DNA of 41,206 nt from Acidimicrobiaceae bacterium (lineage in GTDB: Bacteria > Actinomycetota > Acidimicrobiia > Acidimicrobiales > Ilumatobacteraceae): assembly GCA_947467375.1 (NCBI GenBank), contig CANIHL010000008.1:1-41206 (forward strand). Direction: 5' to 3'. Positions 3,725 through 16,090 of the stretch are shown here, one piece after another. How positions within the stretch are numbered: position 1 is the stretch's first letter; each line of letters begins with the position of its first letter. A program made the position numbers and the translations under genes. Under the pieces are notes generated by a model. It worked only from the letters and a program-made list of their open reading frames with translations, had not been told where the DNA came from and ran no database searches.

Positions 3725-5200
3725 TTATAGAACGGTGATGTCGCCAACAACGGTCAGTTTTGGAAATGGCGAGCGCGCAGCAACGGTCATTCGTACTCGG
3801 CACACAGAAGGCGCTGAAGGAGCGATCAACTTCACGCCACTGACGCGACATGTACCAGCAACAACTTTGTACGTTCGGCTTCCCGATGAGGATGAATTGA
3901 ACAGTTTTGTCAATTCGGTGGTACTCGCTGGCTTTACAGTGTTCGTAACTTGCCAGATCGGAAAAAATGGCCCGGCTGCACCCGAGATCACAAACTGTTT
4001 TGTGCCGCCTCGCGTGTAGGTGATGCCCACACGAATAGTGTGTCGCGCATCGGTTTGGGTGGTGAGGTATTGACGCTTAGTGGCTTTAGCAATTGCAACG
4101 CAATCTGCAGGTATTTCGGTGACAACAGGACCGCTTAAATCACAGCGGAACCACTTCACGCTGGAAACGTCTGTGATGGATTCAAGGTTGGCAACGAGTA
4201 ATTCACTCACATGGCCAACTGCTGCGATTTGAGGAGCGGCTATGGGCGGGAACATACGTTGTAGTTCAGCTAACGCTGCAACCATGTTGATGAGCCCAAC
4301 GCCAAACGTGAGGTCGCGCCCCGGTTCTCCAATGTCTGTTGCCGTGCGCAACAAGATGTCGCGAACTTGGGTATTCGTAACCCGTGGTTCAGCAGCAAAC
4401 AACAATGCCGCCGCGCCGGCAACAAAACCTGCAGCCATGCTGGTGCCACTGAGCGAGACGTAATCACCTTTTGCGGTAGAGACAATGTTGGAACCTGGCG
4501 CCGCAATGTCGATGTAGTCGCCACGTTGATCGAACGCAGTTGCGCTATTTGACTGGTCGACTGCGGTGACAGCAAGTGTGAGGTCAAGCGATGCAGGCCA
4601 TTTCGGTTTATCAATAGCACCGCCGTTGCCAGCGGCAGCAACAACTAGGACGCCCTTGTCGTTGGCATAGGTAATTGCTTGGGTCAAACTGGAGCTTTCA
4701 TTTGTGCCACCAAGTGACAAGTTGATGACCTTTGCACCGTTATCGGCTGCGTAGCGAACTCCAGCGGCGACGTCTCGTGCGTCGCCTTGTCCCGCTTGGT
4801 CAAGTACTTGAATCGGCAAAATTTTTGCTCGTGGGGCAACACCGGAACCACCAATGCCGTTATTGGCAGCAGCAGCGATGATTCCTGCAACGTGTGATCC
4901 GTGTCCACTGGCATCGATATCGGATCCATCTAGTGACTCAACTGATCCGAAGAACGAGTGACCGGTCAATAAATTCTCTGCAAGGTCAGGATGTGGGCCG
5001 CTGCCGCTATCGACAACAGCAACAATGACACCTTGTCCAGTAGTTGTAGTCCAAACACGATCTGCGCCAATGGCAAAAATTCCCCATTGTTGCGCAAGCA
5101 GTGGGTCGGTCGCCGCGGCCTGAACATGTGACGTCAGTGTCAAGCAAGAGGCAACGAGTGCAGCGAAACAAATCGCGAGAGTAGTAAGGGGTTTACGCAA
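3725..5200 (-). CDS. Secreted S8 (subtilisin-like) serine protease
   Basis: Signal peptide; catalytic D (VAVVDSGSGPHPDL), H (ASGHGSHVAGI) and S (LSGTSMAAGFVAG) motifs. TTG start. Confidence 0.92.
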   Translation of the reverse strand: MRKPLTTLAICFAALVASCLTLTSHVQAAATDPLLAQQWGIFAIGADRVWTTTTGQGVIVAVVDSGSGPHPDLAENLLTGHSFFGSVESLDGSDIDASGHGSHVAGIIAAAANNGIGGSGVAPRAKILPIQVLDQAGQGDARDVAAGVRYAADNGAKVINLSLGGTNESSSLTQAITYANDKGVLVVAAAGNGGAIDKPKWPASLDLTLAVTAVDQSNSATAFDQRGDYIDIAAPGSNIVSTAKGDYVSLSGTSMAAGFVAGAAALLFAAEPRVTNTQVRDILLRTATDIGEPGRDLTFGVGLINMVAALAELQRMFPPIAAPQIAAVGHVSELLVANLESITDVSSVKWFRCDLSGPVVTEIPADCVAIAKATKRQYLTTQTDARHTIRVGITYTRGGTKQFVISGAAGPFFPIWQVTNTVKPASTTELTKLFNSSSSGSRTYKVVAGTCRVSGVKLIAPSAPSVCRVRMTVAARSPFPKLTVVGDITVL

Positions 5201-6718: not shown

Positions 6719-6729
6719 TCAACTTGACG

Positions 6730-7860
6730 ATGAAGTTGTTTGATACCGCGCAGCAAGAGATAGTCGAATTTGCTCCGAACCCAACGGTGCTGATGTACAC
6801 GTGCGGAATTACTCCGTACGACGCGACACACTTAGGTCATGCCTTCACCTTTATCTCTTATGACGTACTACAGCGTCGGCTGATCGATATGGGCCATCAA
6901 GTGAAGTGCGTGCGCAACGTCACCGACGTAGATGACCCACTGTTTGCCAAAGCTCGCGAACTTGGAGTTCATTATCTCGATCTTGCAGCAGGTGAAGAGG
7001 CGCGTTTCGAATCGGACATGACTGCGTTGAACGCACTGCCTGTGCACAGCACTCCGCGCGCATCTTCGGCGATTCCCGACATTCGCGGATTCATCGGCAT
7101 GGTGATTGACCGCGGGTTTGCTTATGAATCTGGTGGTTCGGTGTATTTCGACGTGGAGAAGTTTCCACAGTTTGGCAGCGTGTCGCATTACAGCCGCGAA
7201 ACCATGATTGCGCTTGCTCGTGAGCGCGGCGGCAATGTTGACGACCCGCATAAACGAAACCCACTCGACTTTGTGTTGTGGCATCCATCAGCATCTGACG
7301 AACCATCGTGGGACACCATGTGGGGAGCGGGCCGACCTGGTTGGCACATCGAATGTTCCGCCCTTGCACTTCGCGAACTTGGAACCACAATCGACCTGCA
7401 CGGTGGCGGAAGCGACTTAATTTTCCCGCATCACGAATGCGAGCGAGCCCAATCTGAAGCTGCAACTGGCCAACAGTTTGTGAAGCACTGGATGCACGTG
7501 GCGATGGTGTCGATGGACGGCCACAAGATGTCGAAGAGCCGTGGCAATTTGGTGTTCGTCGATAAGTTGCGTACCCAACATGACCCGATGGCAATTCGAT
7601 TGGGACTGATTGAGCACCACTACCGCACGGAGTGGGAATGGGACGACCAACTCATGGCGCGTAATGAGGCGCGACTTGCGCAATGGAAGTCAGCGGCACA
7701 AGTAGGAAACTCGCAAGGTGACTCTGGGTTGCTTGCAGAGGTGCGCTCGGCTCTAGACAATGATCTCGATACGCCTACGGCTGTAGCACTCGTCGATGCT
7801 GCAGCAAAAAATGGAGTAGCAGTAGGAGACAGTGCACGCCTACTAGGGGTCGTTATCTGA
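6730..7860 (+). CDS. mshC: L-cysteine:1D-myo-inositol 2-amino-2-deoxy-alpha-D-glucopyranoside ligase (mycothiol biosynthesis)
   Basis: 'MYTCGITPYDATHLGHAFT' and 'VRNVTDVDDPLFAKARE' are MshC rather than CysS signatures; KMSKS loop 'GHKMSKSRGNLVFV'. Confidence 0.88.
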   Translation: MKLFDTAQQEIVEFAPNPTVLMYTCGITPYDATHLGHAFTFISYDVLQRRLIDMGHQVKCVRNVTDVDDPLFAKARELGVHYLDLAAGEEARFESDMTALNALPVHSTPRASSAIPDIRGFIGMVIDRGFAYESGGSVYFDVEKFPQFGSVSHYSRETMIALARERGGNVDDPHKRNPLDFVLWHPSASDEPSWDTMWGAGRPGWHIECSALALRELGTTIDLHGGGSDLIFPHHECERAQSEAATGQQFVKHWMHVAMVSMDGHKMSKSRGNLVFVDKLRTQHDPMAIRLGLIEHHYRTEWEWDDQLMARNEARLAQWKSAAQVGNSQGDSGLLAEVRSALDNDLDTPTAVALVDAAAKNGVAVGDSARLLGVVI

Positions 7861-12359: not shown

Positions 12360-13283
12360 ATGGCCGATCCTCGCGACACCGGCTTTGATGCATTAACACT
12401 TGCCGGATATCGTGCGGCTTCGTTATTTGCGAAACTCACTCCGGCTCCATTGGCGTTAGGAACATCACTTGCACTTGGTGCGCCGCTCGCTTTGGGTTTT
12501 CGTGACAAGCGAGAAATGATTGAACGACATTTACAGCGAGTAAGCCCTTCGCTACGCGGATTCGCATTGCGTCAGGCTGTGCAAGAAGCGTTTCAGAGCT
12601 ACACGCGTTACTACTTGGAGACATTTCGGTTAGGAACGCTGTCCAAGAAACAAATTCAGGCAGGGTTCACGGTTGACGGTTTTGAACATATCGAAAAAGG
12701 CATTGCAGATGGCAAGGGAGTGGTGCTTGGTCTGCCACACCTGGGCGGATGGGAATGGGCTGGCCGATGGCTTGTTGATCAGGGTTATGGGCTGACTGCA
12801 GTGGTTGAACGTTTAGACAATGACGAACTCTTTGAATGGTTTCGCGACATGCGCAGCAGGGTTGGGGTGAATGTCATTCCGCTCGACGACAACGCTGGTC
12901 TGCGAGTGAGTGCGGCGTTGAAAGACAATCAAGTGGTTTCGTTGTTGTGCGACCGAGATATTCCACGTGATGGTGTGAGGTCGGGGGTTGAAGTCGAATT
13001 CTTTGGAGAGCGAACCACGGTTCCTGCAGGCCCAGCGTTCTTTGCTTTGCGAACGGGCGCGGCACTGTTGCCGCTTGCCACGTATTTCACTCGCAAGTCC
13101 GATGGGCATCATGCAGTGGTGCGCCCACCAATTCCTGTTGAGCGACAGGGGAGTTTGCGCGAAGATGTTGCGCGTATTACGCAACTTCTCATGATTGAAG
13201 TCGAGGGTCTCATTCGTCGTGCCCCAGAGCAGTGGCACTTGTTCCAGCCAAACTGGCCGAGCGACCCAGGGTTTAATTCTTAA
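12360..13283 (+). CDS. Phosphatidylinositol mannoside acyltransferase (LpxL/PatA family)
   Basis: 'GVVLGLPHLGGWEWAGRWLV' HX4E motif, 'SLLCDRDIPRDGVRSGVEVEFFGERTTVPAGPAFFALRTGAALLP'; synteny with pgsA/pimA. Confidence 0.87.
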   Translation: MADPRDTGFDALTLAGYRAASLFAKLTPAPLALGTSLALGAPLALGFRDKREMIERHLQRVSPSLRGFALRQAVQEAFQSYTRYYLETFRLGTLSKKQIQAGFTVDGFEHIEKGIADGKGVVLGLPHLGGWEWAGRWLVDQGYGLTAVVERLDNDELFEWFRDMRSRVGVNVIPLDDNAGLRVSAALKDNQVVSLLCDRDIPRDGVRSGVEVEFFGERTTVPAGPAFFALRTGAALLPLATYFTRKSDGHHAVVRPPIPVERQGSLREDVARITQLLMIEVEGLIRRAPEQWHLFQPNWPSDPGFNS

Positions 13284-13645
13284 GCCAGCAGTGTGCGCAG
13301 TTCGTTTAAGCGCTCGTGATTAACGCGATACCAGACCCAGGTTCCACGCTTCTCGCTCAGTAGTAAGCCAGCTTCGCGCAACACTTTGAGGTGGTGACTC
13401 ACTGTTGGCTGTGATCGACCTGTTGGCTTTACCAAATTGCATGCGCATGTCTCGGTGTTCGGAGATGCAGCGATCAAGCTGAACAACTTGAGGCGAACCG
13501 GGTCGGCAAGTGCGGCAAACCCAACGGCCAAACCTGCCGCTTGCTTCGTGGTCAGTGCAGCGTCCGAAACAGGGCCACAGCAATCTTGTGGGGTGGCGAT
13601 GAATCGCTTCGGCTTTGGGGTCTTTGTTATATTGATGGTTATCAA
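13280..13645 (-). CDS. arsR: ArsR family metalloid-responsive repressor
   Basis: 'FAALADPVRLKLFSLIA...SQPTVSHHLKVLREAGLLLSEKRGTWVWYRV' winged HTH; CC (QDCCGP) and CxC (ETCACN) cysteines. Start codon uncertain (TTG at 13645). Confidence 0.9.
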   Translation of the reverse strand: MITINITKTPKPKRFIATPQDCCGPVSDAALTTKQAAGLAVGFAALADPVRLKLFSLIAASPNTETCACNLVKPTGRSQPTVSHHLKVLREAGLLLSEKRGTWVWYRVNHERLNELRTLLA

Positions 13646-13654
13646 TATAACAAA
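13623..13654. promoter_or_regulatory. Putative ArsR operator: perfect 14-bp inverted repeat, 4-nt spacer
   Basis: TTTGTTATATTGAT-GGTT-ATCAATATAACAAA, located between divergent arsR and the VOC gene; candidate -10 TATATT (13628-13633) lies in the left arm. Confidence 0.85.
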
Positions 13655-13669
13655 TGAAAGAGGCCAATG

Positions 13670-14098
13670 ATGTCACGAGTACAGCTGGCGCTGAATGTGA
13701 GCAATCTTGAAGACGCAATTGAGTTCTATTCAAAGATGTTTAATGCCAAGCCGGCAAAGGTTCGCGAAGGATACGCAAACTTCGCTATCGCCGAACCACC
13801 GCTGAAGTTGGTGCTCATTGAACGCGCTGCTGGTGACACGAGTGAGTTCCACCACTTGAATCACCTTGGGGTCGAACTCGAAGATTCAAATCAAGTTGAC
13901 CAATCCATCGAGCGTTTCGAAAATCTTGGTCTTGTAGAGAAAATCGAAAAAGACACGGTGTGTTGCTACGCGAAGCAGGACAAAGTGTGGGTGCAATCGC
14001 CAGATGATGCTCCTTGGGAGTTCTACACCGTGTTGGCAGACTCGCCATCATTTTTTATCAAAGTAGATGGTGTTGAAGGATCGGCGTGCTGCTCATGA
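13670..14098 (+). CDS. ArsI/CadI-family VOC (glyoxalase-fold) protein
   Basis: 'MSRVQLALNVSNLEDAIEFYSKMFNAKPAKVREGYANFAIAEPPLKLVLIE' and 'DTVCCYAKQDKVWVQSPDDAPWEFYTV'; C-terminal CC. RBS GAAAGAGG 13656-13663. Confidence 0.9.
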   Translation: MSRVQLALNVSNLEDAIEFYSKMFNAKPAKVREGYANFAIAEPPLKLVLIERAAGDTSEFHHLNHLGVELEDSNQVDQSIERFENLGLVEKIEKDTVCCYAKQDKVWVQSPDDAPWEFYTVLADSPSFFIKVDGVEGSACCS

Positions 14099-14751
14099 TG
14101 CGGCGTTTAAGTGCTGAGGCTCTGGGCACCGGTTTATTGATCGTTGCCGTAATTGGCTCCGGAATCATGGCCGAACGTTTGACACAAGATGTAGCGCTGC
14201 AGTTGCTGTGCAATGCAGTGGCAACGGGTGGCGCGCTCGTTGCGCTGATTCTCATTTTTGCTCCAGTGTCTGGTGCATCGTTTAACCCAATCGTTGGAAT
14301 TGTTGGCACGTTGCTTGGAGAGGGAAGTTGGAAAGACACAGCCTTGTATGCAATTGCGCAAACGATTGGTGGTTGCATCGGTGCGGTTGTTGCCAACGTG
14401 ATGTTCGATCTAGATGCAGTCAACTTGTCGGAAAAAGTTCGTACAGGATCCAACATCTGGATTTCTGAAGTTGTTGCCTCGGTTGGATTACTCGTCGTGA
14501 TTTACGGAACCATTCGCGCCAAGCGCGCAAACTTGGTTCCTTTCACTGTTGCCGCGTGGATCACTGGTGCGTATTTCTTTACATCGTCTACATCAATTGC
14601 GAATCCGGCAGTAACCGTTGCTCGCACTCTCAGCAACACGTTTGCTGGTATCGCCCCAGAGTCAGCACCAATGTTTATCGTCATGCAGCTCATCGGTGCG
14701 GTTATTGGGTTTGGCATCATTCGTTTCGTATTTGAAGAGAGTGCAGCATGA
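14095..14751 (+). CDS. MIP/aquaporin family channel, ars-linked (AqpS-like)
   Basis: Hydrophobic six-helix protein with paired NPA boxes 'GASFNPIVG' and 'SIANPAVTVAR'; ATGA overlap with upstream gene. Confidence 0.87.
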   Translation: MMRRLSAEALGTGLLIVAVIGSGIMAERLTQDVALQLLCNAVATGGALVALILIFAPVSGASFNPIVGIVGTLLGEGSWKDTALYAIAQTIGGCIGAVVANVMFDLDAVNLSEKVRTGSNIWISEVVASVGLLVVIYGTIRAKRANLVPFTVAAWITGAYFFTSSTSIANPAVTVARTLSNTFAGIAPESAPMFIVMQLIGAVIGFGIIRFVFEESAA

Positions 14752-15158
14752 GCGAACCACGTATTCCGGGTGTGTTGTTCCTGTGCGTGCACAACGCAGG
14801 TCGAAGCCAGATGGCCGCCGGGTTCACGCGTTCACTTGGCACCAGTAATGTTCGTGTGTTCTCTGGTGGTTCCGAACCTGCTTCGAAAGTGAATCCTTCG
14901 GCTGTTGAAGCCATGCATGAAGTTGGCATCGACATTGCCGACTATGTGCCGCAGAAGTGGTCGATGGAAATGCTGCACGAAGTTGATGTCGTCGTCACCA
15001 TGGGCTGTGGAGACACCTGTCCGTACATTCCGGGCAAGCGCTACGTGGACTGGCCGTTAGATGACCCTGCTGGCCAAGGTGTTGATGCAGTGCGTCCAAT
15101 TCGCGATCAAATTAAGACACTCGTTGAATCGTTGTTAGAAGAACTCGGCGTTCGTTAA
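14748..15158 (+). CDS. arsC: Arsenate reductase, low-molecular-weight phosphatase type
   Basis: P-loop 'CVHNAGRSQMAAGF', 'TMGCGDTCPYIPGKRYVDWPLDDPAGQ'; ATGA overlap with channel gene. Confidence 0.92.
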   Translation: MSEPRIPGVLFLCVHNAGRSQMAAGFTRSLGTSNVRVFSGGSEPASKVNPSAVEAMHEVGIDIADYVPQKWSMEMLHEVDVVVTMGCGDTCPYIPGKRYVDWPLDDPAGQGVDAVRPIRDQIKTLVESLLEELGVR

Positions 15159-16090
15159 CTTTCGAACGCAGCAAATAATTCTGCAACTGCTTTTGCTTGT
15201 CCGCCGCTAGTCGATGACATCACGGCAATCGGGAGCACACCTGCTTTCGCCCAAGCGGCAAATTGATCCCGAACCTGAGATGCATTTCCCGAAATGGTGC
15301 AATCACGTAGCCATTCGTCGGTCATTGCTTGTTGCAATTGTTCTGCGAGCGACTCCTTTGGAGTGTTTGCGATGATCGATTCGATGTTGTCCATTTCTTT
15401 GTCGTATCCAGCGACTCGCCAGTAGTTGCGGTAGTTGGGGAGCGATACATAGCCAGTCAACGTCTTGCGATGAATGGCATACGCAGCGTCAAGGTCTTCG
15501 CTCACCACTGTTGGCACCATGTTGGACATGAAGAACTGATCACGTTGAGCTACTGGAATAGATGCAACCTGTCGGCTGATGTCGCGTAGTGAAGCGTTTG
15601 CCCAAATGGCACCTTGTGAAATTTCGGAAGATAACGCAAGCATCTTGTCGCGCAACGTTGCGAGAAAAATCTGGGGAAGTTGTCCAGAAAATCGTTCGTT
15701 GGATCGCATCGCCTGAACGTAATTGGCGATATCGGAAAGCGGTTTGCCTGTTGCAACTCCAAGTCGCTGCACGACTGGGCCATGGCTCACTCCAATGCCA
15801 AGACCAAATCGACCACCTGAAATTTCATGAATATGTGCTGCAGTGTTTCCTAGTTCAACCGGGTGGCTGTAATACATCGGTTGAATTGACGTCCAAAATG
15901 GAATGGTCGATGTTGCATGCGCAAGGGACACACATAAACCAAGCGTTCCCCCCAAACTTGGGCACGCGATGCCTGCAAAGCCGCGACGCTCGGCCTCAAC
16001 CGCAATGTCCAATATGGCCTGACGCTTCGTTGGAGATGCAACGAGTGAAATCGCAGGAAGTGTGTATGAAGATGGCGTGAAAGTGATCAT
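15155..16090 (-). CDS. LLM-class (probably F420-dependent) flavin oxidoreductase
   Basis: 'PVELGNTAAHIHEISGGRFGLGIGVSHGPVVQRLGV' luciferase-like signature. Confidence 0.88.
   Translation of the reverse strand: MITFTPSSYTLPAISLVASPTKRQAILDIAVEAERRGFAGIACPSLGGTLGLCVSLAHATSTIPFWTSIQPMYYSHPVELGNTAAHIHEISGGRFGLGIGVSHGPVVQRLGVATGKPLSDIANYVQAMRSNERFSGQLPQIFLATLRDKMLALSSEISQGAIWANASLRDISRQVASIPVAQRDQFFMSNMVPTVVSEDLDAAYAIHRKTLTGYVSLPNYRNYWRVAGYDKEMDNIESIIANTPKESLAEQLQQAMTDEWLRDCTISGNASQVRDQFAAWAKAGVLPIAVMSSTSGGQAKAVAELFAAFES

Follow-up and report, generated by a model that had tools for sequence, protein, structure and literature searches.

The window, by which we mean the whole 41,206-nucleotide stretch that was analysed (contig C8), belongs to a 1.68 Mb draft assembly of an Acidimicrobiaceae bacterium in 101 contigs, estimated to be about 92.3% complete. 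Profile searches identified in it a four-gene cassette in which arsR, on the minus strand, diverges from arsI/cadI, a MIP channel gene and arsC, all on the plus strand. The features of the locus and its flanks are as follows:

12360-13283: phosphatidylinositol mannoside acyltransferase, flanking gene (profile search)
13280-13645, minus strand: arsR, ArsR/SmtB-family repressor (HTH_5, E 1.4e-11; start codon uncertain)
13623-13654: perfect inverted repeat TTTGTTATATTGAT-N4-ATCAATATAACAAA in the divergent promoter region, probable ArsR operator
13667-14098, plus strand: arsI/cadI, VOC-fold metalloenzyme, putative C-As lyase (NF041414, 182.6 bits)
14095-14751, plus strand: AqpS-type MIP channel (PF00230, 82 bits; AqpS homology)
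14748-15158, plus strand: arsC, arsenate reductase of the LMW-PTP type (PF01451, 67.7 bits)
15155-16090, minus strand: luciferase-like F420-type oxidoreductase, flanking gene (profile search)
16105 onward: GT4 glycosyltransferase, flanking gene (profile search)

Two ATGA stop/start overlaps can be read directly in the sequence, one joining the VOC and channel genes (14095-14098) and one joining the channel gene and arsC (14748-14751); the VOC gene itself starts at 13667 or 13670. A preliminary description of this DNA had given the same gene order and the same two overlaps, and both stand. The divergent arsR gene that it had noted was also recovered, with a start that we consider doubtful because the mechanical one (TTG, 13645) falls inside the perfect 14-bp inverted repeat.

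The arsR product scores above the cut-off of the NCBIfam model HTH_metalloreg and, with 96.2 bits, below the curated cut-off of 155 for the Rv2640c-family model NF041413. Its closest solved relative is the C. glutamicum ArsR 6j0e, an arsenic-responsive repressor, with which the vicinal cysteine pair C22-C23 is aligned; further cysteines are present at C67 and C69. This aligned N-terminal pair suggests a CgArsR-like, arsenic-sensing repressor with a putative As(III) binding site. A palindrome related to the inverted repeat was found in 12 of the 13 congeneric loci examined, and the repeat is predicted to be the site at which ArsR binds. Elsewhere in the window, positions 3725-5200 on the minus strand encode a Mycosin-like subtilase (TIGR03921, 253.4 bits against a cut-off of 278.75).

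Enzymes of the cassette

The arsC product lies well above the PF01451 cut-off of 23.2 bits, and its closest solved relative is 3t38, entitled 'Arsenate Reductase' (E 1.1e-32). Because its CX5R loop (C13-X5-R) and two further cysteines, C87 and C91, are placed as in 3t38, a three-cysteine, thioredoxin-type catalytic cycle is suggested. The protein misses both of the NCBIfam arsenate-reductase equivalogs, with 95.2 bits against 157.6 for TIGR02689 and 84.4 against 174.3 for TIGR02691, and we therefore assign it to neither subtype. At 6724-7860 the window also holds a gene resembling MshC, which reaches 443.8 bits against a cut-off of 485.1 and scores above the cysS cut-off as well. Since a second CysS-like gene sits on contig C60 of the same genome, the gene at 6724-7860 may encode a mycothiol ligase, which hints that mycothiol could also be available.

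The VOC protein exceeds the curated cut-off of 116 bits for NF041414 (ArsI_CadI_VOC), a model that takes in both ArsI and CadI, and it matches the 5c4p/5d4f series in the PDB with an E value of about 1e-41. In the alignment to 5c4p it keeps Q5, H65 and E117, which we take to be the three metal ligands of ArsI, and C98-C99, presumably its vicinal cysteine pair; a C-terminal CC is kept too. ArsI activity and a cadmium-related CadI function cannot be told apart from the sequence. This one component of the cassette could then be a cadmium-inducible metal-binding protein of the CadI type, or an enzyme acting on thiol conjugates, and not a C-As lyase: the model spans both families, a role with thiol-arsenical complexes has been proposed by the authors of the Frankia study (PMC4531530), and the profile search of the host genome found no ArsM above the curated cut-off, the matches being to generic methyltransferases below it (at most 33.8 bits against 263). 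Against this stand the close match to the 5c4p series with its metal residues and cysteine pair retained, and a genetic linkage that is to arsenic genes. We consider such a function unlikely, with an appreciable chance of being correct, and prefer to read the protein as a putative C-As lyase.

Pump genes and conservation

Searches of the host assembly (92.3% complete) revealed no Acr3, ArsB, ArsP or ArsJ and a single MIP gene, that of the cassette channel, and control genomes gave matches in each of these searches. The absence of a pump that had been reported for the cassette and the window thus extends to the assembly as a whole, for Acr3, ArsB and ArsJ and for ArsP in addition. An exporter might nevertheless lie in an assembly gap, the genome being some 92% complete and broken into 101 contigs, or belong to a family other than the four covered, such as ArsA or the generic MFS pumps; the channel would then be an accessory. 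Acr3 is however missing from all 22 congeners as well, including genomes that are 90-98% complete, so that loss of a pump to the incompleteness of the draft is unlikely, and ArsB, ArsP and ArsJ are likewise absent from the host genome. Taken as a whole, an overlooked pump seems to us very improbable, and we retain the reading of a cassette that operates through its channel.

Of 61 related genomes, 39 have a channel of the same clade (E below 1e-40), and among these are 20 of the genus's 22 other members. The block formed by the acyltransferase, arsR-arsI-channel-arsC and the oxidoreductase occupies the same place in most of the genus, which makes a chance assembly of the four genes untenable, and the same syntenic block is found in another genus of the family (genome G023, locus L029). 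Together, these observations point to vertical inheritance of the cassette. Other Acidimicrobiia have the four genes in exactly this order as well. Three genomes of the genus (G004, G019 and G021; loci L021, L025 and L026) have no syntenic cassette and carry instead an arsC-arsC-channel arrangement with a divergent channel (52-60% identity), which suggests that the cassette was replaced there. In the congener G009 (L008, 2145-2561; also L059 and L075) a stop divides the arsC frame in two in an otherwise intact cassette, which may reflect either a sequencing error or decay.

Acr3 was found above the cut-off in 10 of the 61 related genomes, and only one of the 39 channel-bearing genomes (G035) has both genes (Fisher test, p 2e-4 across genomes and 3e-3 when genera are counted). 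Two genomes (G048 and G052) have Acr3-like matches below the cut-off, and counting these together with two fragmentary ones gives p 3e-4. In a second set of 178 Actinomycetota genomes, drawn evenly and sharing few members with the first, the channel is present in 27 genomes, Acr3 in 57 and both in one (p 2e-4 by genome and 0.048 by genus); in these tests related genomes count as independent, the genus-level count being the sole adjustment for kinship. The channel and Acr3 are seldom present in the same genome, within the order and across the phylum, a pattern of near-exclusion.

The channel and its relatives

The channel scores far above the PF00230 cut-off of 25 bits and aligns over 99% of its length, at 49.1% identity, with the protein annotated as AqpS in S. 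meliloti. The structure predicted for the channel, with a pLDDT of 90.9, has the standard aquaporin fold, with AqpZ as the closest match. The pore filter departs from that of GlpF: in the alignment, Thr44 takes the place of the GlpF tryptophan and Val173 that of the ar/R arginine, and Ser167, whose placement against GlpF Phe200 hinges on one alignment gap, directly precedes the second NPA motif. AqpS carries the same residues at these three positions, where GlpF differs. Across 82 channel sequences Thr44 is found in all, Ser167 in 81, and position 173 is valine in 74, isoleucine in seven and alanine in one. Arg177 (window positions 14623-14625), one helical turn beyond the canonical position of the filter arginine and one turn past the second NPA, is invariant in the same 82 sequences and may compensate for its loss. 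A filter that is wider and less cationic, as this one may be, would suit As(OH)3.

We surveyed the neighbourhoods of the best 80 channel loci in GTDB species genomes, some of which are cut by contig ends so that the counts are lower bounds. In at least 71 of these 80 the retrieved stretch contains an ars gene, and in at least 67 the channel lies within 400 bp of an arsC, of either the LMW-PTP or the glutaredoxin type. ArsI is present in at least 24, and the exact arrangement arsR (minus strand), arsI, channel, arsC in at least nine. With E. coli GlpK as query, no glycerol kinase was found near the channel in any of the best 80 loci, some truncated by contig ends. Sampled channels that have no ars genes around them neighbour genes unrelated to glycerol metabolism, for example those for ALAD, a ROK kinase, an M20 peptidase and PGDH. 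MIP-ArsC fusions, at which long open frames had hinted, resolved into separate genes in the loci examined. The only fusions that turned up there were ArsR-ArsC proteins near the channel, in Cryobacterium (L101, 2250-3233, minus strand) and in Bradyrhizobium (L136, 1245-2171).

A common water or glycerol channel placed in an ars operon by chance, as the best solved-structure matches (AqpZ and AQP3) might suggest, is a hardly credible reading of a protein that is about half identical to AqpS and shares its altered filter, whose relatives adjoin arsC in at least 67 of 80 cases and glpK in none of the 80, and whose sampled relatives lacking ars neighbours stand among unrelated genes.

Discussion

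A near counterpart of the cassette is the S. meliloti operon arsR-aqpS-arsC-arsH, which shares with the present one a homologous channel, an overlap of the channel gene with arsC, control by ArsR and the lack of a pump within the operon. It differs in that its arsC is annotated as being of the glutaredoxin type, arsH stands in the place of arsI, and arsR is co-directional. In the cadI region of M. tuberculosis, arsR and cadI presumably accompany an arsenite exit route and ArsC in the form of an Acr3-ArsC fusion; the exit there is a pump, whereas here it is a channel. Proteins in which MIP and ArsC are fused, from Salinispora and other actinobacteria, were reportedly described by Wu et al. in 2010. 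They too couple an AqpS-like channel to an arsenate reductase, in one polypeptide where we find two overlapping genes, a comparison that we draw through citing papers, according to which actinobacterial aquaglyceroporin-ArsC fusions confer arsenate resistance (PMC6205960, PMC12838822). In Frankia, a 2014 report places arsR, arsC2 and cadI in the neighbourhood of an aqpS orthologous to the S. meliloti gene, and gives the organism as resistant to arsenate and not to arsenite (PMC4531530). The same four gene types are thus brought together in another actinobacterium, although one of a different order of Actinomycetota, and the likeness drawn here is one of gene content. The kind of cassette is already described in other bacteria, actinobacteria included. 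The earlier suggestion that the combination may be little characterised does not hold: given the Frankia neighbourhood and the actinobacterial fusions, the locus is a further, well-conserved example of a known scheme. What the present analysis adds is that the scheme is conserved in freshwater Acidimicrobiia, that the channel and Acr3 almost exclude one another, and that a filter signature runs through the whole channel clade.

We propose the following mechanism. ArsR would repress the divergent promoter through the palindrome and be released when As(III) binds its cysteines. Arsenate would enter by phosphate uptake and be reduced by ArsC to As(OH)3, which would leave down its gradient through an AqpS-type channel that lacks the usual filter arginine. 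Methylarsenite taken in from outside would probably be demethylated to As(III) by ArsI/CadI and use the same exit. Being passive, such a system should protect against arsenate, and not against high external arsenite.

The predicted channel-mediated release of arsenite after ArsC is well supported by homology and gene neighbourhoods. The preliminary description had proposed just this, an ArsC and a channel in place of a pump with an ArsI/CadI protein added, and the proposal keeps its footing, because AqpS, from an operon of similar make-up, is closely related to the channel, searches of the genome for acr3, arsB, arsP and arsJ gave no pump, and the channel clade stands beside arsC and not beside glycerol genes. 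We conclude that the cassette is very probably a vertically inherited, AqpS-type arsenate-detoxification operon of a freshwater, Ilumatobacteraceae-like actinobacterium. More tentatively, and as a possibility that we hold somewhat short of an even chance, it may serve as a full detoxification route without a pump, for arsenate and for methylarsenite from the environment alike, in which MAs(III) released by neighbours would be converted to As(III) by ArsI and leave, with the As(III) made by ArsC, through the arginine-less channel.

The known picture is unchanged by these findings, and the cassette should be a convenient system in which to test arsenite-selective aquaporins. The co-occurrence counts provide a quantitative sign that AqpS-type channels and Acr3 replace one another. 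If the dual route is true, a streamlined freshwater bacterium would resist arsenic without an energy-driven exporter. Our results extend the AqpS-type system firmly into the streamlined freshwater Acidimicrobiia, where it is kept across a genus that has no Acr3 gene.
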